In this document: positions 2,706 through 23,812 of the stretch, in pieces
Layout: each line of letters opens with the position of its first letter
Numbering within the stretch: the first letter of the stretch is position 1
Origin: Coriobacteriaceae bacterium
Lineage (GTDB): Bacteria; Actinomycetota; Coriobacteriia; Coriobacteriales; Eggerthellaceae
Length of the DNA stretch: 64,000 nt
Reading direction: 5' to 3'
Assembly: GCA_015062685.1 (NCBI GenBank)
Contig: SUUE01000001.1
Span: forward strand, 23,704-87,703
Translations under genes and position numbers: made by a program
The notes under the pieces: model-generated
Told to the model about the DNA's origin: nothing
The model's database searches: none
What the model saw: only the letters and a program-made list of their open reading frames with translations

Positions 2706-4625
2706 GTGCATCTCATAGTTTTCTTGATACTCTTTCCTTTGGTGGCAGCCGGTCTCTTGCTGCTGTTGCGCTCAGACATAGCGCGCAATGCCGTGGTCTG
2801 CGTATCAGCGGCGGTCATCGCCGTCGTCTCCATCGTGCTTTCGGTGCAATACGTCGGCACGGGTTGGCAGGGCTTCGCGCTGTCGTCCGTCGTGATCGAC
2901 TTCGTGGGCATCGCCATAAGCGTGGCACTTGCCGCCGTGGTCATCTCGTTCGGCATCAAGTACGGTAACAAGATCGCGATTGCGCTCGCCGCCATCCAAG
3001 TGGTCGGTTCTCTCGTGTTCGAGTTCGGCTTCGCGCACGGCCTGCACGTGGAGACGGGGCTCTACATAGACTCGCTTTCGATAATCATGGCGCTCATCAT
3101 CGGCGTCATCGGGAGCGGCATCTGCGTCTACGCCCTCGGCTATATGGCTGATTTCCAGAAGCACGAGCCCGAAGGCACGAAGGATCGCCGCCCGACGTTC
3201 TTCGCGCTCATGTTCCTGTTCCTCTCGGCAATGTACGCCATCGTGTTCTCGAACAACATGGTTTGGGTCTTCACGGGGTGGGAGGTTACGACCGTGTGCT
3301 CGTTCCTGCTCATCGGCTTCACGCGCACCGAAGAGGCGATCGCGAACGCCTTCCGCCAGATCATCATGAACATTCTCGGCGGCATCGCGTTCCTCGTTGC
3401 GCTCTACGTAGCGGCCATCAACCTGCACACTCTCTCGTTCGTTGAATTTATTGCTGCTGGCGTGAGGGCCCCCCATCTCGCGAGCATCGCCGTGTGCGCT
3501 CTCGCGTTCGCCGGGCTCACCAAGTCCGCCCAGATGCCCTTCCACACGTGGTTGCTCGGGGCCATGGTCGCACCAACGCCCACATCCGCCTTGCTGCATT
3601 CGTCGACCATGGTGAAAGCGGGCGTGTTCCTGCTCGTCAAGCTGTCCCCGATGCTTCTCGTCTGCCCTCCGGCCCAGGAGATGACCATATTGGTGGGCGG
3701 CATAACGTTCATGCTGTGCTCGTTCATGGCTATTTCCCAGACAAATGCGAAGCGCGTGCTGGCATATTCGACGATTGCCAACCTCGGGTTGATTGTTTCC
3801 TGCGCCGCAGTCGGCACGCCCGAGGCCATATGGGCGGCCATACTTCTCGTCATCTTCCACGCCGCGGCCAAGAGCCTCCTGTTCCTGTGCGTGGGCACCG
3901 CCGAGCACCATATCGGCAGCCGCGACATCGAGGACATGGACCTGCTCTTCGACCGCATGCCGTTCCTCGCACGCCTCATGATGCTCGGCATCATGTGCAT
4001 GTTCATCGCGCCGTTCGGCATGCTCATAGCCAAATGGGCGACGCTCGTGTCATTCGTCGACATGCATCAGTTCATCCTCGTGCTGCTGCTCGCCTTCGGC
4101 TCGGCGGCCACGTTCATGTTCTGGGCGAAATGGCTCGGCAAACTCTCGGGCATTGCGGGCTCGCCCGAGAACGTGGAGATTACCGTCCACGCCACCGAAT
4201 GGGTCGCGATGTACGTCATGGCTGCGATCGCCTGCTTCGCGTGCATCCTCCTTCCCCTCGTGTCCGCCGCGCTCGTCGAGCCCTACATCGGCATGACGTA
4301 CGGTTCGGTTGTGCCGGGCATCACCGACGAGAACCTGTGGATATCATCAATACTCGCCGCCTTCGTGATCATCATCTTGTTCGCAGGCCTGGGGGCGTCC
4401 AAGAAGAAGCGCGTGGGCGTCTACCTTGCGGGCGTGAGCGTCGACTCCGACGCGCGCGTATACCGCAACAGCCTTTCGGGCGAGACCGAGGCAACGTCGC
4501 GCAACATGTATCTCGATTCAATATTCGGCGAGGGCAAGATCCGTCGCCCGGGCGAGATCATCTGCTCAGCAATCATCGTAGTCGCCCTCATCGCCAGCGG
4601 TTTCGTTCCGCCGGTGCTGCTGTAG
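2706..4625 (+). CDS. echA: Ech-type hydrogenase subunit A (NuoL/MrpA-like proton or sodium channel)
   Basis: This 639-residue protein is almost wholly membrane helices and carries the antiporter-family signature T-K-S-A-Q-x-P-F-H-T-W-L followed by A-P-T-P-x-S-A-L-L-H-S near residues 270-300. It would form the ion-translocating arm of a membrane-bound NiFe hydrogenase that couples ferredoxin oxidation to proton reduction. The start is GTG at 2706 behind a GGGGAG ribosome site. It is the first of six tightly packed genes whose order matches echABCDEF. A weak promoter candidate (TTGCAT at 2658) lies upstream, but I see no good -10 box. Without its neighbours it could equally be called NuoL or HyfB-like. 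Confidence 0.85.
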   Translation: MHLIVFLILFPLVAAGLLLLLRSDIARNAVVCVSAAVIAVVSIVLSVQYVGTGWQGFALSSVVIDFVGIAISVALAAVVISFGIKYGNKIAIALAAIQVVGSLVFEFGFAHGLHVETGLYIDSLSIIMALIIGVIGSGICVYALGYMADFQKHEPEGTKDRRPTFFALMFLFLSAMYAIVFSNNMVWVFTGWEVTTVCSFLLIGFTRTEEAIANAFRQIIMNILGGIAFLVALYVAAINLHTLSFVEFIAAGVRAPHLASIAVCALAFAGLTKSAQMPFHTWLLGAMVAPTPTSALLHSSTMVKAGVFLLVKLSPMLLVCPPAQEMTILVGGITFMLCSFMAISQTNAKRVLAYSTIANLGLIVSCAAVGTPEAIWAAILLVIFHAAAKSLLFLCVGTAEHHIGSRDIEDMDLLFDRMPFLARLMMLGIMCMFIAPFGMLIAKWATLVSFVDMHQFILVLLLAFGSAATFMFWAKWLGKLSGIAGSPENVEITVHATEWVAMYVMAAIACFACILLPLVSAALVEPYIGMTYGSVVPGITDENLWISSILAAFVIIILFAGLGASKKKRVGVYLAGVSVDSDARVYRNSLSGETEATSRNMYLDSIFGEGKIRRPGEIICSAIIVVALIASGFVPPVLL

Positions 4626-4641
4626 AGAAAGGTCGAGCATC

Positions 4642-5517
4642 ATGTCGTTTATCCCCGTACTCATCGGAACGGTGGCGTTCGCGGTTCTCGCGCCCATCCT
4701 GGGGTGCTTGCTCGCAGGCCTCGACCGAATAATATCGGCACGCATGCAGGGGCGCGTCGGCCCTCCGCTTCTGCAGCCATACTACGACGTCCGCAAGCTC
4801 ATCGAGAAGGACGACGTCACGGTCTCGGGCGTCGACGGCATCTACATGACCGCCGCACTCGTGTTCACCGCGTTTGCGGGAGGCATCTTTTTCTCGGGCG
4901 GCAACCTGCTCATGAGCGCCTTCGTCATCACGATGGCAGCGTTGCTCTTCATCATGGCGGCGTTCTCCTCCCGAAGCCCCTATGCAGAGGTCGGCGCGAG
5001 CCGCGAGACACTGCAGGTCATGTCCTACGAGCCGATGGTGCTCCTCATGGCCGTATGCTTCTACATGGCAGCGGGGTCGTTCATGGTGGGCGACGTGTTC
5101 CAGCGCAACGTGCCAGTCATCGTCTACACGGTTCCCGCATTCGTCGGGTTCCTGTTCATTCTCACGATCAAGCTCCGAAAATCGCCGTTCGACATTTCCA
5201 CGTCGCATCACGCGCACCAGGAGATTGTCCGCGGAACCACGACCGAGATGAGCGGCAAGACGCTTGCGAAGACCGAGGTCATGCATTGGTGCGAGACGGT
5301 TCTCTTCCTGGGCTGGACGGGCATGTTCTTCCTCTGGAGCAACCCCGGTTCGATCGTGATCGCGGTCATCGCCGCGCTCGCGGCCTGGTTCCTGGAGATC
5401 TTCATCGACAACAATTTCGCCCGCGTGAAGTGGCAGGCGATGCTCAAGTGGGCCTGGGTCGTGGCACTGGTCGCAGGTGGCATCAACATCGTCGTGCTCA
5501 TGGGCGTCGTGTTCTAG
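4642..5517 (+). CDS. echB: Ech-type hydrogenase subunit B (NuoH-like membrane anchor)
   Basis: This 291-residue membrane protein has about eight helices. The first cytoplasmic loop reads G-x-x-x-R-x-Q-G-R-V-G-P-P, and the region K-S-P-F-D-I-S-T-S-H-H-A-H-Q-E about residues 180-194 is the NuoH/EchB quinone- or coupling-site loop. In Ech it anchors the hydrogenase module to the ion-pumping arm. An AGAAAGG ribosome site precedes the ATG, 16 bp after echA. Its 291 residues are close to the usual EchB length. Confidence 0.88.
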   Translation: MSFIPVLIGTVAFAVLAPILGCLLAGLDRIISARMQGRVGPPLLQPYYDVRKLIEKDDVTVSGVDGIYMTAALVFTAFAGGIFFSGGNLLMSAFVITMAALLFIMAAFSSRSPYAEVGASRETLQVMSYEPMVLLMAVCFYMAAGSFMVGDVFQRNVPVIVYTVPAFVGFLFILTIKLRKSPFDISTSHHAHQEIVRGTTTEMSGKTLAKTEVMHWCETVLFLGWTGMFFLWSNPGSIVIAVIAALAAWFLEIFIDNNFARVKWQAMLKWAWVVALVAGGINIVVLMGVVF

Positions 5518-5532
5518 CAGAAAGGCTGAGAG

Positions 5533-5976
5533 ATGGGTTTTGCATCAAAGTCACCGTGGGTAATCCATTACGATGCCTCGAGCTGTAATGGCTGCGACAT
5601 TGAGGTGCTCGCGGCACTCTGCCCCGGGTTCGACGTCGAGAGATTCGGCATCATAAACACGGGCAATCCGAAACATGCAGACATCTTCCTCGTGACGGGG
5701 TCGGTGAACGAGCGCAACATTTCCGTAGTCAAGCAGATCTACGACCAGATGGTCGAGCCGAAGGTCGTGGTCGCTTGCGGCACGTGCGCGTGCTCGGGCG
5801 GGATCTTCCACGATTGCTACAACGTCATCGGCGGCGTCGACAAGGCTATTCCCGTGGACGTGTACGCACCGGGTTGCGCCGTCCGCCCCGAAGCAATCAT
5901 CGACGGCGTCGTTCAGGCGCTCGGGATCCTCGAAGAAAAATCGAAGGCCCTCAAGGCATCTAAGAGGGGAGCATAG
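5533..5976 (+). CDS. echC: Ech-type hydrogenase small subunit C (NuoB-like)
   Basis: This is the small electron-transfer subunit that holds the [4Fe-4S] cluster next to the nickel site. The 147 residues include C18-x-x-C21, C82-G-T-C85 and P-G-C115, the cysteine layout of NuoB and group 4 hydrogenase small subunits. There is no export signal, so the module faces the cytoplasm. A GGCTGAGAG stretch precedes the ATG. It lies 15 bp after echB and 4 bp before echD. Confidence 0.9.
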   Translation: MGFASKSPWVIHYDASSCNGCDIEVLAALCPGFDVERFGIINTGNPKHADIFLVTGSVNERNISVVKQIYDQMVEPKVVVACGTCACSGGIFHDCYNVIGGVDKAIPVDVYAPGCAVRPEAIIDGVVQALGILEEKSKALKASKRGA

Positions 5977-5980
5977 CATC

Positions 5981-6889
5981 ATGGCAATTAACTCCGAGTT
6001 CGTGAACCTCCCGCTCGAGAGGCTTCACGCCGAAGCGGCGATCATGAAGGGCGAGAACTGGCGCTTCATCCAGACGCACGCCGTAAGCACGGACGAAGGC
6101 ATCGACCTGTACTACTCGTTCATGAAGAACGGAATGACAAGGAATTACCGGGTCAAGGGCGTTGAGAAGGGCACGCCGGTGCCCTCGATCACCGACCTGT
6201 TCCTCGCTGCTTTCGTGTTCGAGAACGAGGCGCGCGAGCTCTTCGGCGTCGACATGCGCGATATTGCGATCGATTTCCACGGCGGCCTGTATGCCCCCGC
6301 CGAGCAAGAACCTATGACGGTCATCACCCCGGAGCAGAAAGCGGCGCGTGACAAGGCGCGCAAGGCGATGCTCAAGGCCTCTGCGGCAAAAACGGACGAG
6401 CCGAAGGAGCAATCGCAAGGGGGCTTCGTCATGACGCCCGAGCGCCAAGCTCGGCTCGACGCGAAGATGGCAAACATGTCGCCTGAAAAAGCCGAGAAGG
6501 TGCGCGCTGCGCTGGCGGCACGTGCAGCCGAGGCGGCTTCGTCCGGCGCGAAGCCTGCGGATGCCGGCGGCAAGAAGGAGACCGCCGCGAAGGCCGAGGT
6601 GCCCAAGGCGGAGGCCGCCGATCCTGCGGATAACGTAGACGAAGCGCTTGAGGCGAAGATCGCGGCAATGGACCCCGAGAAGGCCGAGAAGGTGCGCAAG
6701 GCACTCGGCATGGTGGGCGAGGACGTTGCGGAAGAGCCCGCGAAGGCGCCCGTCGCGGAGGAAGCCCCGGCCACGGAGGATGCGCAGCTCGCAGACAAGC
6801 TGGCGCACATGGACCCCGCCAAAGCAGAGAAAGTTCGCGCTGCCCTGGAGGCGCGCGGTAAGGGCATAGCGTCCCTGGGAGGGAAATAG
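5981..6889 (+). CDS. echD: Ech-type hydrogenase subunit D (NuoC-like) with repeat-bearing tail
   Basis: Residues 1 to about 115 match the compact NuoC/EchD domain (for example F-E-N-E-A-R-E-L-F-G-V-D at 80-91), which packs against the large subunit. Usual EchD proteins are little longer than this; here there are 302 residues. The extra ~185 are Ala/Lys/Glu/Pro-rich and look flexible, apart from three copies of a 20-residue helix-like motif ending in K-A-E-K-V-R-x-A-L (residues 159-178, 223-242, 270-289). A fourth copy ends EchF. Two degenerate relatives may sit at about 121-140 and 151-165. The gene ends one base before echE. What the tail binds is unknown. Confidence 0.88.
   Translation: MAINSEFVNLPLERLHAEAAIMKGENWRFIQTHAVSTDEGIDLYYSFMKNGMTRNYRVKGVEKGTPVPSITDLFLAAFVFENEARELFGVDMRDIAIDFHGGLYAPAEQEPMTVITPEQKAARDKARKAMLKASAAKTDEPKEQSQGGFVMTPERQARLDAKMANMSPEKAEKVRAALAARAAEAASSGAKPADAGGKKETAAKAEVPKAEAADPADNVDEALEAKIAAMDPEKAEKVRKALGMVGEDVAEEPAKAPVAEEAPATEDAQLADKLAHMDPAKAEKVRAALEARGKGIASLGGK
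6455..6514 (+). repeat. EchD tail motif, copy 1 (KAEKVR repeat)
   Basis: Encodes residues 159-178 of EchD, core M-S-P-E-K-A-E-K-V-R-A-A-L. The related copies are at 6647-6706, 6788-6847 and 8450-8509. The DNA differs at many third positions between copies while the protein motif is kept, which suggests selection on the peptide rather than a recent duplication. Confidence 0.85.
6647..6706 (+). repeat. EchD tail motif, copy 2
   Basis: Encodes residues 223-242 of EchD, core M-D-P-E-K-A-E-K-V-R-K-A-L, identical to copy 1 at 10 of the 12 core positions after the first Met. Confidence 0.85.
6788..6847 (+). repeat. EchD tail motif, copy 3
   Basis: Encodes residues 270-289 of EchD, core M-D-P-A-K-A-E-K-V-R-A-A-L, thirteen residues before the protein ends. 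Confidence 0.85.
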
Positions 6890-6890
6890 C

Positions 6891-7979
6891 ATGGGCAAGA
6901 AGACCGTTATCCCATTCGGGCCGCAGCACCCCGTCTTGCCGGAGCCGCTGCACCTCGACCTTGTCGTGGAAGACGAGAAGGTGCTCGAGGCAACGCCCCA
7001 GATCGGATTCATTCACCGCGGGCTCGAACGCCTCGTTCAGACGCGCGATTACAACCAGTTCATCTACGTTGCGGAGCGCATCTGCGGCATCTGCGCGTTC
7101 GGGCACTCCATGGGCTACGCGGAGACCGTCGAGAACCTCATGGGGGTGGAGGTGCCCAAGCGCGCCGAATACCTGCGCGTCATATGGCACGAGCTTTCGA
7201 GGATCCATTCGCACATCCTCTGGCTGGGCCTTGCCGCCGACGCCTTCGGCCATGAGGCCCTGTTCATGCATTGCTGGCGCCTGCGCGAGCGCGTGCTCGA
7301 CCTGTTCGAGAAGACGACGGGCGGCCGCGTGATATTTTCCGTCGTCAAGGTGGGCGGCGTGCAGCGCGATATCGATGCCTCCATGTTGAACCAGTTCATA
7401 TACGTGCTCGACGGCATCATGGACGAATACAAGCAGATCTGCGACGCGTTCCTGAACGACGCATCCGTGCGCAACCGCACCGAGGGCGTCGGGGTCATAC
7501 CCACCGAAAAGGCGATCGACCTGAGCATGGTCGGCCCGTTCGGTCGTGCCTCAAACGTGCCATACGACGTGAGGTCGCTCGGCAACGGGGCCTACGGCGA
7601 GCTCTCCGATTTCCAGCCGATCGTCTCGGACAAGTGCGACTGCTACGGGCGCATGGAAGTTCGCGCAGCAGAAGTCATCCAGTCAATCGCGATCATCAAG
7701 GAACTCGCGGCAAAGATCCCTGCAGGCGACATAGCCGTTTCCGTCAAGGGCGCGCCGGCCGTCGATTCCGAGGCGTGCAACGTCGTGGAGCAGCCGCGCG
7801 GCGAGTGCTACTACTACGCCAAGGGCAACGGCACGAAGTACCTGGACCGCATGCGCATGCGCACGCCAACTTCGCAGAACCTCGCCGGCATGGCCGTGGC
7901 GCTCAATGGCTGTGACATCGCCGACGTGAACATGATCGTGCTGACCATCGACCCCTGCATCAGCTGCACGGAAAGGTAG
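6891..7979 (+). CDS. echE: Ech-type NiFe hydrogenase large subunit E
   Basis: This is the catalytic subunit, making or consuming H2 at a NiFe centre. Both nickel-binding pairs are present: R-I-C65-G-I-C68 with H72 near the N-terminus, and D-P-C356-I-S-C359 at the C-terminus. That separates it from the NuoD subunit of complex I, which has lost them. The protein stops three residues after the last cysteine, so it has no C-terminal extension for a maturation protease to remove, as expected for the Ech type. The 362 residues are normal for the family. Nickel insertion would need Hyp proteins; only hypA (23816) is in this window. Confidence 0.93.
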   Translation: MGKKTVIPFGPQHPVLPEPLHLDLVVEDEKVLEATPQIGFIHRGLERLVQTRDYNQFIYVAERICGICAFGHSMGYAETVENLMGVEVPKRAEYLRVIWHELSRIHSHILWLGLAADAFGHEALFMHCWRLRERVLDLFEKTTGGRVIFSVVKVGGVQRDIDASMLNQFIYVLDGIMDEYKQICDAFLNDASVRNRTEGVGVIPTEKAIDLSMVGPFGRASNVPYDVRSLGNGAYGELSDFQPIVSDKCDCYGRMEVRAAEVIQSIAIIKELAAKIPAGDIAVSVKGAPAVDSEACNVVEQPRGECYYYAKGNGTKYLDRMRMRTPTSQNLAGMAVALNGCDIADVNMIVLTIDPCISCTER

Positions 7980-7987
7980 GGATTGCA

Positions 7988-8524
7988 ATGGGAGCATTCA
8001 AACTGGGAAACATGACGTTCGGGTCGCTGTTCAAGAAACCCGAGACGGTGCTTTACCCCATCGAGAAGAAACCGCAGCCGGAGGGCCTCAAGGGGCATAT
8101 CGAGATCGTCGCATCCGATTGCATCCTCTGCAGCATGTGCGAACGATCCTGCCCCACGAGCTGCATCACCGTGGACAAGAAGGAATCTTACTGGGCCATC
8201 GACCGCTTCGCCTGCATCCAATGCGGCTACTGCACCACGGTCTGCCCGAAGAAATGCCTGCACATGAAGCCCGGATACGCCGCGCCCGAAGCCAACAGGC
8301 ACGAGGTGCGCGTGACGGTAGAAAAGGCTCCTGCGCCCGCGAAGAAGAAGGCCGAGGCACCTGCCAAGCAAGCTGCTGCGGAGAAGCCCGCAGCCACCGC
8401 GGCCCCCTCGGCCAACCAGGTTAATGCAGTCGAGAGTCGCGACGAGCTGCTGGAAAGCAAACTCGCGACTATGGACCCCGAAAAAGCCGAGAAGGTGCGT
8501 GCAGCGCTCAAGGCGAAGGCGTAA
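7988..8524 (+). CDS. echF: Ech-type hydrogenase subunit F, 2[4Fe-4S] ferredoxin-like, with repeat tail
   Basis: This polyferredoxin subunit passes electrons between soluble ferredoxin and EchC. Two cluster motifs are visible: C45-x2-C48-x2-C51-x3-C55-P and C76-x2-C79-x2-C82-x3-C86-P. After residue ~110 there is an Ala/Lys/Pro-rich linker and a final copy of the motif found three times in EchD (residues 155-174), so the tail makes this 178-residue protein longer than ordinary EchF. It is the last gene of the operon and is followed by a strong inverted repeat. Confidence 0.9.
   Translation: MGAFKLGNMTFGSLFKKPETVLYPIEKKPQPEGLKGHIEIVASDCILCSMCERSCPTSCITVDKKESYWAIDRFACIQCGYCTTVCPKKCLHMKPGYAAPEANRHEVRVTVEKAPAPAKKKAEAPAKQAAAEKPAATAAPSANQVNAVESRDELLESKLATMDPEKAEKVRAALKAKA
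8450..8509 (+). repeat. KAEKVR motif in the EchF tail (copy 4)
   Basis: Encodes residues 155-174 of EchF, core M-D-P-E-K-A-E-K-V-R-A-A-L. Its core is the same as EchD copy 2 except for one residue (Ala for Lys), although it lies in a different protein of the same complex. Confidence 0.85.
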
Positions 8525-8548
8525 ACAACGAGCATCGTGGCACCGTTT

Positions 8549-8595
8549 CGGGGCCTCATGTCCATGCATGTTAGCCATGTGGACATGAGGCCCCG
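8549..8595 (+). terminator. 16-bp perfect inverted repeat after echF
   Basis: The arms CGGGGCCTCATGTCCA (8549-8564) and its exact complement (8580-8595) enclose a 15-base loop that can itself pair CATG with CATG. It sits 24 bp after the echF stop, where an operon end is expected. There is no U-run after the stem, so it may be a Rho-dependent end or an RNA 3'-stabilising hairpin rather than a classic intrinsic terminator. Confidence 0.55.
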
Positions 8596-8702
8596 AATGC
8601 TATATACCGCGATTAACCTGCTAATATATTCCTTTGAGTAAAAGCAGCATGAAATGCAGCGGCAGCATCCGAAGCTGCCGGGTTTTGTGGAGAAGGACGT
8701 AC

Positions 8703-13655: not shown

Positions 13656-15419
13656 ATGCAGCTGATGTCAGGAAACGAGGCAATAGCTAGGGGAGCATGG
13701 GAGGCAGGCGCGTCCGTTGGCGTGGCGTACCCCGGCACCCCGTCCACCGAGACGCTCGAGGCGTTCGCGCGCTACGAGGACGTTTACGCCGAGTGGTGCA
13801 CGAATGAGAAGGTGGCCGTGGAAGTGGGCGTCGGCGCGTCCGCGGCGGGCGCGCGCGTCCTCGCCACCATGAAGCACGTAGGCGTCAACGTCGCGGCCGA
13901 CCCGCTCCTGACCGCCGCGTACACAGGCGTCAACGGGGGCTTCGTAATCCTGGCTGCAGACGACCCCGGCATGTACTCCTCGCAGAACGAGCAGGACTCG
14001 CACTTCTACGGGCTCGCCGCGCACATCCCCGTGCTGGATCCCGCGGATTCGCAGGAGGCGCTCGAGTTCACGAAGGCCGCCTACGGCCTCTCCGAGCGCT
14101 TCGACGTGCCGTTCATCATCCGCTCGACCGTGCGCGTCTCGCATACGAAAACCCCCGTGGAGCCGGGGGAGAAGCTCGCATACGAGATGCCCGAGTACGA
14201 GAAGGATCCCGCGAAGTGGGTCATGATGCCCGCATTTGCCAAGCCCCGCAGAAAGGTTCAGCTCGAACGCGACGAGGAGCTGAGGGCCTTTGCGGATAGC
14301 TGCGAATTCAACAAGGTCATCGAGAAGGGGAGAGCAGTTGGCGTCGTCTGCGCGGGCGCCGTTTACCAGCACGTAGTCGAGGCCCTGCCCGATGCAACGG
14401 TGCTCAAGCTCGGCATGACCTGGCCTCTTCCCGAGAACACGATCCGCGAGCTCGCCAAGAGCGTCGAGAGGCTCTACGTCATCGAAGAGGGTTCCGAGTA
14501 CCTGACCAACCAGGTGCGCTCGCTCGGCGTCGCCGTGAGCGCATTCGAGAGGGAGCTGCCCCGCGACGGCGAGCTCTCGCCCGGCCTCATAAGCTACGCA
14601 TTCGGCGTGGACGTGCCGGGGCACATCGAGACCCCGGGCGACGTTCCGGGAAGGCCGCCCGCGCTTTGCGCCGGCTGCCCCCACCGCCTCGTGTTCAAGG
14701 AGCTCTCGCGCATAAAGGCAATCGTCACCGGCGACATCGGCTGCTACACGCTCGGCGCGCTTCCGCCCCTCGCCGCCATGGACACGTGCGTGGACATGGG
14801 CGCTTCGGTATCGATGTCGCATGGGTTCGAGATCGCCCTCGCCCAGAAGGAGCATAGGCCTGTCGTGGCAGTCATCGGCGATTCCACGTTCGCTCATTCG
14901 GGACTGTCGTCGCTCATAACGACGGTTTACAACAGGGGAGCAGGCACCGTCTGCATCCTCGACAACAGAACGACGGCTATGACGGGCCGCCAGGGCAACC
15001 CCTTCAACGGCGTGACGCTCCAGAACCGGCCGAGCAGGGAGCTCGACCTCATGGGCATCCTCCAGGCGCTCGGCATCGAGCACGTTTCCCTCGTTGACCC
15101 GCATGACGCCAAGGCTGTGCGCCAGGCGCTCAAGACCGCCACGAAGGACCAGGCCGACGAGCTTTCGGTCATTGTGTTCAAGGCGCCCTGCGTGCTCCTG
15201 CACCGCGAACGGAAGCCGTATTACTACGTGAACGCTGACTGCCGAGCATGCGGCGTCTGCACGGGCCTGGGGTGCCCCGCCATTTCGAAAGACCCCGAAT
15301 CGGGCTTCGCGAGCATCGACAGCCTTCAGTGCATCGGCTGCGGCCAGTGCGCACAATACTGCGGCTTCGACGCCATTGAGCAAATACCAGCATCTTCGGC
15401 AAAGGAGGTGGCACGATGA
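13656..15419 (+). CDS. iorA: Indolepyruvate:ferredoxin oxidoreductase, alpha subunit
   Basis: IorA oxidises aryl-pyruvates from aromatic amino acid transamination to aryl-acetyl-CoA and passes electrons to ferredoxin. The 587 residues hold the pyrimidine-binding half (A-Y-P-G-T-P-S-T-E at the start), a central C-x-G-C-P-H segment, the TPP-binding half with G-D-I-G-C-Y and G-D-S-T-F, and two C-terminal [4Fe-4S] motifs (C-R-A-C-G-V-C and C-I-G-C-G-Q-C-A-Q-Y-C). It overlaps iorB by four bases (ATGA). The reduced ferredoxin could feed the Ech hydrogenase nearby, which is inference. Confidence 0.95.
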   Translation: MQLMSGNEAIARGAWEAGASVGVAYPGTPSTETLEAFARYEDVYAEWCTNEKVAVEVGVGASAAGARVLATMKHVGVNVAADPLLTAAYTGVNGGFVILAADDPGMYSSQNEQDSHFYGLAAHIPVLDPADSQEALEFTKAAYGLSERFDVPFIIRSTVRVSHTKTPVEPGEKLAYEMPEYEKDPAKWVMMPAFAKPRRKVQLERDEELRAFADSCEFNKVIEKGRAVGVVCAGAVYQHVVEALPDATVLKLGMTWPLPENTIRELAKSVERLYVIEEGSEYLTNQVRSLGVAVSAFERELPRDGELSPGLISYAFGVDVPGHIETPGDVPGRPPALCAGCPHRLVFKELSRIKAIVTGDIGCYTLGALPPLAAMDTCVDMGASVSMSHGFEIALAQKEHRPVVAVIGDSTFAHSGLSSLITTVYNRGAGTVCILDNRTTAMTGRQGNPFNGVTLQNRPSRELDLMGILQALGIEHVSLVDPHDAKAVRQALKTATKDQADELSVIVFKAPCVLLHRERKPYYYVNADCRACGVCTGLGCPAISKDPESGFASIDSLQCIGCGQCAQYCGFDAIEQIPASSAKEVAR

Positions 15420-20655: not shown

Positions 20656-20672
20656 CGTCGTGGTCCCCTTCC

Positions 20673-20731
20673 TTGACGCCGTGTCAACCCTGATGAGCCG
20701 AATGCTACGCCCCGCATTGACGCCATGTCAA
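20673..20731. promoter_or_regulatory. Twin operator-like dyads for the TetR repressor
   Basis: TTGACGCCGTGTCAA (20673-20687) and TTGACGCCATGTCAA (20717-20731) are both TTGAC-N5-GTCAA palindromes differing at one base, with centres 44 bp apart (close to four helical turns). They lie just upstream of the tetR start and about 110 bp before the flavoprotein start. Confidence 0.75.
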
Positions 20732-20842
20732 TCGACACTTCGCGCGAAACGTCAACGCGCTTGGGCGTACAATAATGGCTCGGGAGGCCGGCCGCTTTCT
20801 GCGGAGCCTCCGCCCATCGGAATGGCGGAAGGGGAGAGGGCC

Positions 20843-23812
20843 ATGACGAGAAAGCCTTTCAACGGCACGATTACGCGAATTGCGGAACCTTACGGTGGCT
20901 CGACGGTCAAGCAGCGCAAGGATGCCATGCTGCGCGGCATAGGCGACGAAGAGCGCGTTGAGCGCAACAGGATTCCCGACAGGGCTCCTAACGGCGACCC
21001 GCACCGCATAATCGCCGAGGAGGCCTTCTCCGAGAACGACACCTTCGTGCATTACTGCCCGGGCGCGCCCGATGCGCCGGGCCCTGCTTCGCGCGAGCCG
21101 CTCAGGCCGGGTGTGCTGCGCGAGGGTCAGAAGATAACCGATCGCATAGGTGTGAAGGTGACGCCCGAAGACCCGGACTATTGGGGCCTCGCGAGCGTGA
21201 TGACCGAAGACGAGGCGGCGCTGACGGCGTACATGAAGGTCAGGCGCCCAATGACGTTCGCGCAGATACAGGACGCGAGCGGAATGGAGCCCAGCAAGCT
21301 GCAGGAGCTCCTGGACGCGTTGAGCTTGAAGGGCGTTATCGAGTATAACTGGGAGAACCTGGACGGCAAGAACCCCGAGCACGAGAAGCGCTACGTCCTT
21401 CCCATGTTCGTTCCAGGGTCGGCCGAGTTCACAGTCATGAACCAGAGCCAGCTCGAGGAGCATCCCGAAATCGGTACCTTCTTCGAGCGCATGACATTCC
21501 TGCCACTCGAGAAGGTGACCAAGATGGTGCCGCAGGGCGGCGCAGGGGTCGGAATGCACGTCATACCCGTCGAGCGAGCCATCGAATGCGAGAACGAGGC
21601 CGTTGACATCGAGCACATATCGCATTGGCTCAAGAAGTACGACCGGTACGCCGCGGGCGCGTGCTCGTGCCGCTTGAGCCGTCGCGTGCGCGGCGAGAAC
21701 GCGGGAAGCGACCCGCAGAACTGGTGCATCGGCGTCGGGGACATGGCGGACTTCCTCGTCGAGACCGGGCGAGGCCATTTCGTGACGCTCGACGAGGTCA
21801 TGGACATCCTGGTCCTGGCCGAGAAGAACGGCTACGTCCACCAGATCACGAACATCGACGGCGAGGACAAGATCTTCGCCATATGCAACTGCGACGTAAA
21901 CGTCTGCTACGCGCTGCGCACCTCGCAGCTCTTCAACACGCCCAACATGAGCCGCTCGGCGTACGTGGCGCATATCGAGCGCGAGAAGTGCGTGGCATGC
22001 GCGGGCTGCGTCGAGGTGTGCCCGGCGGGCGCAGTGCAGCTCGGGCAGAAGCTGAGGACGATCGACGGGGAAGTGGAGTACCCGCGACAACCCCTGCCGA
22101 CGCTCTCATGGGGCGAGGACGACTGGGATTTCGACTACCGCGACAACAACCGCATCGAGTGCCACGACACGGGCACCTCACCCTGCAAGACGGCATGCCC
22201 AGCCCATGTATCGGTGCAGGGCTACCTGCGCATGGCGGCCCAGGGGCGCTACCGCGACGCCCTTGCGCTCATCAAGAAGGAGAACCCGTTCCCGGCCATC
22301 TGCGGGCGCGTCTGCAACAGGCGCTGCGAGGCGGCGTGCACGCGCGGAGCCGTGGACGAGGCCGTGGCTATAGACGAGGTGAAGAAGTTCATAGCCGAGA
22401 AGGACCTCGAAGCCGAGCACCGCTACGTCCCCGAAATCGTGCCGCCCAGCACGCGCGGCCGTTTTTCGGACAAGATTGCTGTTGTCGGCGCGGGGCCGGC
22501 GGGGCTGTCTTGCGCGTACTACCTCGCGACGCTCGGCTACGAGCCCGTCGTGTTCGAGCGAAACGAGAAACCGGGCGGCATGATGACCTACGGTATTCCC
22601 GCCTACAAGCTCGCAAAGGACGTCGTGGATACTGAGATAGACGTGCTGCGCGAGATGGGCGTCGAGATTCGCTGCGGCGTCGAGGTCGGGCGCGACGTGA
22701 GCCTCGACGAGCTCCGTGAGCAAGGATTCAAGGCGTTTTACCTAGCCATCGGGTGCCAGGGCGGGCGCCGCGCCGGCGTGGACGGTGAGGACCTGGACGG
22801 CGTCGTCACGGCAGTTGACTTTCTGCGCGGAGCGCTTGCGGATCCGAATTCTGAAGTCACGGGCAGCACGGTCGTCATCGGCGGTGGCAACGTTGCCATC
22901 GATGCCGCGCGCGTAGCGCTGCGCTGCGGTTCCGAGAGCGTCACAATGGTGTGCCTCGAGCAGCCGGGGGAGATGCCCGCGCTGCCCGAGGAAATCGCCG
23001 AGGCAGAGGAAGACGGCGTGCGCATCGTGAACGGATGGGGCCCGAAACGCATCGAGGAGGGCGAGGGCGGCCGCGCGGGCTGCGTCGTGTTCAAGCATTG
23101 CGATAGTGTATTCGACGGAGAAGGCAAGTTCGCGCCCGTTTACGACGAGGAGAACGAACTGCTCGAAGAAGCGCAGAACATCGTGCTCGCCATCGGCCAG
23201 TCCATCGAATGGGGTGGATTGCTCGATGGGTCGCGCGTTGAGCTCGGCCGGGGCAACGGCGCCGTAGCCGACCCTGTTACGTACCAAACGGGCGAGCCTG
23301 ATGTGTTCGTCGGCGGGGACGCGTTCACAGGCCCGCGCTTCGTCATCGACGCCATCGCCGCCGGTCATGAAGCTGCAATTTCCCTGCATCGTTTCGTCCA
23401 GACAGGCTCCTCGCTTACGATCGGCCGGAACAAGCGTCATTACGTCGAGCTCGACAAGCGGCGAATCGCGCTCAACCCCTACGATTACGACCATGCCGGC
23501 CGTTGCGTTCCCGAGTGCGCCCGCACCGGCGACAAGCTGCACAACTGGGACGACCCGCGCCGCTGCTTCACCGAAGAGCAGATTCGCATCGAGACCGCGC
23601 GCTGCCTATCGTGCGGCGCGTCAGTCGTAGACCCGAACAAATGCATAGGCTGCGGTCTCTGCACGACGCGCTGCGAATTCGACGCGATTCACCTCAAACG
23701 CGACAACCCCGACTGCTCGACCATGGTGAAGAGCGAGGACAAGCTTAAGAAGATTCTCCCGAACGCCGGCAAGATGCTCGTGAAGCGGATCTTGCCAACG
23801 GGGAAGAGGTAG
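20843..23812 (+). CDS. Large multi-[4Fe-4S] NAD(P)/FAD oxidoreductase with GltD-like core
   Basis: This 989-residue cytoplasmic protein has several parts in order: a small winged-helix-like stretch (~115-180), a cysteine-rich region (~275-365, C-S-C and C-N-C pairs), a ferredoxin motif C-V-A-C-A-G-C-V-E-V-C-P at ~383, a GltD/NfnB-type domain with N-terminal Fe-S cysteines (~450-510), FAD-binding V-G-A-G-P-A-G at ~546, NAD(P)-binding G-G-G-N-V-A-I-D at ~680, and a last ferredoxin motif C-I-G-C-G-L-C at ~934. ATG 20843 is used because GGAAGGGGAGAGG precedes it; a longer frame opens at 20660 but covers the operators. It probably moves electrons between NAD(P)H and ferredoxin; the exact partner is unknown. 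hypA follows after 3 bp. Confidence 0.78.
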   Translation: MTRKPFNGTITRIAEPYGGSTVKQRKDAMLRGIGDEERVERNRIPDRAPNGDPHRIIAEEAFSENDTFVHYCPGAPDAPGPASREPLRPGVLREGQKITDRIGVKVTPEDPDYWGLASVMTEDEAALTAYMKVRRPMTFAQIQDASGMEPSKLQELLDALSLKGVIEYNWENLDGKNPEHEKRYVLPMFVPGSAEFTVMNQSQLEEHPEIGTFFERMTFLPLEKVTKMVPQGGAGVGMHVIPVERAIECENEAVDIEHISHWLKKYDRYAAGACSCRLSRRVRGENAGSDPQNWCIGVGDMADFLVETGRGHFVTLDEVMDILVLAEKNGYVHQITNIDGEDKIFAICNCDVNVCYALRTSQLFNTPNMSRSAYVAHIEREKCVACAGCVEVCPAGAVQLGQKLRTIDGEVEYPRQPLPTLSWGEDDWDFDYRDNNRIECHDTGTSPCKTACPAHVSVQGYLRMAAQGRYRDALALIKKENPFPAICGRVCNRRCEAACTRGAVDEAVAIDEVKKFIAEKDLEAEHRYVPEIVPPSTRGRFSDKIAVVGAGPAGLSCAYYLATLGYEPVVFERNEKPGGMMTYGIPAYKLAKDVVDTEIDVLREMGVEIRCGVEVGRDVSLDELREQGFKAFYLAIGCQGGRRAGVDGEDLDGVVTAVDFLRGALADPNSEVTGSTVVIGGGNVAIDAARVALRCGSESVTMVCLEQPGEMPALPEEIAEAEEDGVRIVNGWGPKRIEEGEGGRAGCVVFKHCDSVFDGEGKFAPVYDEENELLEEAQNIVLAIGQSIEWGGLLDGSRVELGRGNGAVADPVTYQTGEPDVFVGGDAFTGPRFVIDAIAAGHEAAISLHRFVQTGSSLTIGRNKRHYVELDKRRIALNPYDYDHAGRCVPECARTGDKLHNWDDPRRCFTEEQIRIETARCLSCGASVVDPNKCIGCGLCTTRCEFDAIHLKRDNPDCSTMVKSEDKLKKILPNAGKMLVKRILPTGKR

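Follow-up and report, generated by a model that had tools for sequence, protein, structure and literature searches.

What are the alanine- and lysine-rich tails of two Ech hydrogenase subunits for? The operon that raises this question lies in a 64,000-nucleotide stretch of a Coriobacteriaceae bacterium genome (contig SUUE01000001.1; the window), where EchD and EchF, the NuoC-like and ferredoxin-like subunits, both run on past their expected ends. An original prediction, made from the DNA letters alone, proposed that the two tails share a repeated helical motif that docks a partner or the membrane, or holds hydrogenase complexes together. Here we ask whether the motif is a genuine module, which proteins carry it, and what it is likely to do.

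The ech operon and its surroundings

The window contains echABCDEF complete and in order at 2706-8524 of the forward strand, the six-gene set by which Ech is recognised (Table 1). Judged from its genes, the operon encodes a regular group 4e [NiFe] hydrogenase (Ech), because EchE has both NiFe CxxC pairs, ICGIC (C65, C68) and DPCISC (C356, C359), with cysteines invariant among 18 homologues, and EchF has both cluster motifs, two CxxCxxCxxxC stretches (C45/48/51/55 and C76/79/82/86) whose eight cysteines are invariant in 34 sequences. EchD matches Pfam Complex1_30kDa (2e-6), and Foldseek places NuoC/Nqo5 chains on top, as expected from its core. The source genus belongs to the Eggerthellaceae and includes rumen members, and its EchE is 85-88% identical to that of the metagenome-assembled genomes RUG14206 and RUG12446.

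Several neighbouring features are recorded here in their own right. Right after echF, a strong inverted repeat (TCGGGGCCTCATGTCCA ... TGGACATGAGGCCCCGA) occupies 8545-8600 of the forward strand; the RNA of 8525-8630 folds with -50.2 kcal/mol (z = -7.0), a clear T-run is absent, and the repeat is probably the operon-end structure, acting as a terminator or a bidirectional end. About 5 kb downstream of the operon, 13656-15419 encodes the alpha subunit of an indolepyruvate-type, ferredoxin-reducing ferredoxin oxidoreductase. The 1050-residue product of 20660-23812 is a flavo-iron-sulfur oxidoreductase (Fer4_20, Pyr_redox_2 and Fer4, with the N-terminal half unannotated), presumably reminiscent of YgfK-type selenate reductase subunits. 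On the other side of the operon, 12-2531 holds two neighbouring membrane proteins that are alike in sequence type, have no Pfam match at E<=1e-4 and are possibly glycosyltransferase-like.

TABLE 1. Positions of the Ech subunits and tail elements in the window, and of the NfnA genes that carry the same repeat.
Feature	Position	Strand	Description
EchA	2706..4625	+	antiporter-like membrane subunit; Pfam Proton_antipo_M 1.6e-50
EchB	4642..5517	+	NuoH-like membrane subunit; Pfam NADHdh 2e-42
EchC	5533..5976	+	small hydrogenase subunit, NuoB-like; Pfam Oxidored_q6 2.1e-28; NuoB family
EchD	5981..6889	+	302 aa; NuoC-like core, residues 1 to about 112, and ~190-residue tail
EchD linker helix PEQKAARDKARKAMLKASAAKTD	6329..6397	+	residues 117-139; AlphaFold2 helix
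EchD hairpin repeat 1	6437..6544	+	residues 153-188; HMM 46.5 bits
EchD hairpin repeat 2	6635..6718	+	residues 219-246; HMM 44.6 bits
EchD hairpin repeat 3	6776..6877	+	residues 266-299; HMM 47.7 bits; co-varies with the EchF copy
EchE	6891..7979	+	[NiFe] large subunit, without repeat
EchF	7988..8524	+	178 aa; two [4Fe-4S], ferredoxin-like, tailed; Pfam Fer4 matches
EchF hairpin repeat	8420..8518	+	residues 145-177; HMM 48.2 bits
Tagged NfnA, L137	1600-2802
Tagged NfnA, L210	3589-4809
Tagged NfnA, L211	2305-3525
Tagged NfnA, L212	1500-2675
Tagged NfnA, L216	1416-2618

The repeat unit

The unit is about 30 residues long, with the consensus DAxLEAKLAxMDPEKAAKVRAALxA. As predicted, it is present three times in EchD (ARLDAKMANMSPEKAEKVRAAL at 6449, EALEAKIAAMDPEKAEKVRKAL at 6641 and AQLADKLAHMDPAKAEKVRAAL at 6782) and once in EchF (ELLESKLATMDPEKAEKVRAAL at 8444). 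With a profile from which they were left out, the four copies score 44.6-48.2 bits; among 10,000 composition-preserving shuffles of the tails, the highest score is 12.6 bits. When the full 2.5 Mb genome is searched for the unit at E<=10, these four copies are the only hits, all four in Ech. The shuffle scores and the genome-wide search together rule out a low-complexity artefact, and the motif is not a generic sequence scattered over unrelated proteins of this genome. A Pfam search with the repeat gives Emfourin alone, under its cutoff, and the repeat profile finds no relative among PDB sequences, where the best hit is an unrelated chain (E 0.3). The original prediction knew of no description of the motif; the open-access literature, to which our search was confined, likewise yielded no account of the EchD or EchF tails or of the unit, which has probably not been described before.

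Predicted fold and helix properties

In the AlphaFold2 predictions every copy in the window folds into a helix-turn-helix hairpin attached to a disordered or low-confidence linker, in EchD as in EchF. The EchD prediction, run with relatives, places the NuoC-like core first, then the linker helix 117-139, which the alignment shows to be common to Eggerthellaceae and Coriobacteriaceae EchD, and finally three two-helix hairpins split by disordered linkers. The helices span residues 153-164 and 168-188 in repeat 1 (pLDDT about 80-95 by block), 219-229 and 232-246 in repeat 2, 266-275 and 279-299 in repeat 3 (about 95 over most of its length), and 145-161 and 164-177 in EchF (91-96 over most), values that describe the hairpins themselves and carry no information on partners. 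Over 131 units the best-conserved columns are A25, K18, V22, A19, R23 and K10, a pattern that, read onto the helices, suggests a small hydrophobic seam with exposed basic residues.

The copies had been called amphipathic helices, a description that is right about the helices but finds no support for the amphipathicity. The hydrophobic moments (muH) of the EchD hairpin helices are 0.12-0.47, none above those of shuffled helices (p 0.17-0.85), and the EchF helices have low values (0.09 and 0.15). Mean hydrophobicity is negative in nearly all of the helices. The high moment expected of a membrane-binding amphipathic helix is thus not found in the EchD or EchF hairpins. The hairpins are helical and Lys-rich, in keeping with a tether from the cytoplasmic arm to the bilayer, but since the helices are not significantly amphipathic membrane binding is unlikely, and with the unit also carried by NfnA, which belongs to a soluble enzyme, we consider this option of the original prediction extremely improbable.

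The charge pattern bears on a second explanation, namely that K18, K21, R23 and K10 capture acidic ferredoxin and concentrate it in the vicinity of EchF. These four positions are among the well-conserved columns, the second helix is basic (net +1 to +3), and all carriers among the matches listed belong to ferredoxin-linked enzymes. However, net charge is mostly negative in the first helix, the unit as a whole is near neutral, and K10 is replaced by leucine in some species; we regard ferredoxin capture as unlikely.

Distribution across genomes

In the Coriobacteriaceae the unit follows Ech closely: 57 of 67 genomes have it, and it is present in 57 of 58 EchE-bearing genomes but in none of the nine that lack EchE (Fisher p 2e-10, with kinship ignored). 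All 70 places where it occurs adjoin echE, in EchD just before it (57) or EchF just after it (13). For the Eggerthellaceae, the matches listed place the unit in at least 110 of 138 genomes, and EchE is present in 126 of the 138. Because some Eggerthellaceae have Ech and lack the repeat (again among the matches listed), the repeat is dispensable for Ech. Among the named taxa that carry the unit are Eggerthella sinensis, Gordonibacter, Berryella, a Slackia assembly, Collinsella and Enorma. Copy number per EchD ranges from one to five (five in G160) and reaches three in EchF (in G507); in most Eggerthellaceae and in Collinsella the copies are confined to EchD.

The unit was not found in the sampled Actinomycetota outside the Coriobacteriia, in 348 Bacillota genomes searched with the same profile that finds its targets in the Coriobacteriia, or in 25 Ech-bearing clostridial genomes. 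Ech also occurs in other Coriobacteriales families, some of them with Ala/Lys-rich tails, but there the unit itself is absent. These sequence searches mark the unit as a lineage-wide module of the Coriobacteriia, and the tails do not belong to every Ech operon. The claim that ordinary EchD and EchF lack them holds for clostridial EchD, but not for two families of the Coriobacteriia: nearly every Coriobacteriaceae genome with Ech carries the unit, and so do most Eggerthellaceae.

Two further observations concern individual loci. In other Coriobacteriales families, the EchF of L028, L030, L033, L057, L061 and L062 ends in a simpler Ala/Lys helix tail, LTPEEKAAKAAAEAEKAARIAAAKAA, which may be the ancestor of the second helix of the hairpin. 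One genome (G493, with a contamination estimate of 5%) has two distinct Ech operons with hairpin tails on both (L213 and L214), reflecting either a second operon or mixed strains.

A third carrier, NfnA

The original prediction suggested a search for the genes that carry the motif. Among the matches listed every unit-bearing frame read is EchD, EchF or NfnA; 19 frames that the sorting script had left unclassified proved on inspection to be EchD, whole or in fragments. NfnA, which is the FAD/NAD subunit of ferredoxin:NADP+ oxidoreductase, bears one C-terminal copy in two Eggerthellaceae genera (five genomes read) and is the sole carrier found outside the ech operon among the matches listed. The identity of these frames is supported by NF004862 (about 1e-114) and by matches to the structures 5jca and 4ylf, and at L211 a GltA-like (NfnB-like) gene lies directly downstream. 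NfnA orthologues from other genera, 77-79% identical, end without the unit. The sequences thus indicate that the copy on NfnA is an addition, with the unit recruited to a second ferredoxin-linked enzyme. Tagged Nfn is absent in most genomes, and the source genome is without a close NfnA.

Evolution of the copies

The four copies in the window differ pairwise at a pS of 0.57-0.74 and a pN of 0.16-0.27. Because pS is near saturation while pN is low, these values point to old copies under purifying selection. It had been claimed that the DNA diverged more than the peptide, which is true of synonymous sites (pS > pN) but not of raw identities, which are similar (62-71% for nucleotides and 64-77% for amino acids). 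Selection also bears on the proposal that the tails are a neutral, functionless Ala/Lys-rich expansion in GC-rich genomes. Although the tails are indeed rich in Ala and Lys, with differing lengths and numbers of copies, pS lies far above pN, columns are conserved over 131 units, unrelated proteins are free of copies among the matches listed, and the copies score far above shuffles, making a neutral origin very improbable.

We compared the EchD and EchF copies across 12 related genomes of the source genus. The EchF copy resembles the last EchD copy at 0.67 within the same genome and at 0.55 between genomes, a difference reached in none of 20,000 permutations, while the first and middle EchD copies show no excess for their own genome (p 0.96 and 0.13). 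At unit position 10, the last EchD and EchF copies are K/K or L/L in 12 of 12 genomes. On the EchE tree the L state needs three changes, although strictly it may have had a single origin; with the K10L genomes set aside, the effect stands at p 0.023. In G507, a V to F change is common to all four copies, across EchD and EchF. Recent gene conversion between the EchD and EchF copies is unlikely at their nucleotide identity of 0.52-0.74. These patterns fit co-evolution, through contact or a shared partner, and they also fit old copying between the genes.

One form of contact would be internal to the enzyme, with the EchD and EchF hairpins packing together or only on the Ech arm, stabilising it as accessory subunits do in complex I. 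While the presence of the unit in both adjacent subunits and the way the EchF copy co-varies with the last copy of EchD are in line with such a staple, the NfnA copy in two genera, the confinement of copies to EchD in most Eggerthellaceae and in Collinsella, and the very long and variable linkers speak against it, and we judge it unlikely.

A proposed docking function

The reading we prefer, at about an even chance of being correct, is that the unit is a small helical-hairpin protein-interaction module, a tag for docking or assembly carried by ferredoxin-coupled enzymes. This reading is suggested because the unit is folded, multi-copy, tethered, apparently on the electron-entry side, and reused on another ferredoxin-linked enzyme; because it is rare outside Ech except on that one enzyme, it is probably a plug joining electron-transfer enzymes. 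The hairpins would hang on long disordered linkers from EchD (NuoC-like) and EchF (2[4Fe-4S]), subunits of the cytoplasmic arm, which the known architecture of Mbh and complex I would place near electron entry. Several copies per complex could allow avid, flexible docking, and the tag would gather ferredoxin-linked enzymes in one place: hairpins might pair with hairpins (EchD with EchF, Ech with Ech, or Ech with tagged Nfn), or they might bind one common soluble partner. The outcome would be a local hand-over of reduced ferredoxin. The docking function, the electron-entry position and the partner are what we infer here. The general idea of docking or assembly in the original prediction gains from the conserved folded hairpin, flexible tethers, selection, tie to Ech and recruitment to NfnA. 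A narrower version is possible, though we hold it only tentatively: a modular plug system of the Coriobacteriia in which the hairpin tag assembles Ech, joined in some genera by Nfn, into an electron-transfer supercomplex, and the last EchD hairpin pairs with the EchF hairpin.

Ech determines both the energy yield that gut and rumen anaerobes obtain from ferredoxin and their output of H2. If Ech and Nfn truly share a dedicated tag, this would suggest that low-potential electrons are physically channelled, something that to our knowledge is frequently supposed and seldom shown. As a short handle, the unit also lends itself to pull-downs from culturable hosts (Eggerthella, Gordonibacter and Collinsella). 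A 2025 gut study describes group 4e hydrogenases as moderately abundant and in need of better characterisation (PMC12578642).

Comparison with known systems

No solved Ech structure was found; the closest are Mbh (6cfw) and FHL-1 (7z0s). The window shares with the group 4e Ech of Methanosarcina, Desulfovibrio and Clostridia the echABCDEF order, the EchE CxxC pairs and the two [4Fe-4S] motifs of EchF. Clostridial EchD, the comparison used here, stops directly behind the NuoC-like core and is free of hairpin repeats, unlike EchD of the window.

Escherichia coli RsxC, of the Rnf family, likewise is a membrane electron-transfer subunit whose tail carries C-terminal repeats (DPRKAAVEAAIARAKARK), Ala/Lys-rich with DPxKAA. 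These repeats lack the LEAKLAxM first helix and are an analogy only; homology to RsxC/RnfC repeats finds no support in the repeat profile, with the best RsxC domain at -1.6 bits (E 0.15, single-sequence search).

HDCR filaments are an example of tail-mediated enzyme assembly, in which electron-carrying subunits may assemble enzymes via terminal helices. Different protein parts are involved in HDCR and in the putative Ech tag, and filaments are not implied here. A further parallel comes from NfnAB, the NADH-dependent ferredoxin:NADP+ oxidoreductase, where two Eggerthellaceae genera carry the same hairpin on an NfnA whose orthologues elsewhere do without it.
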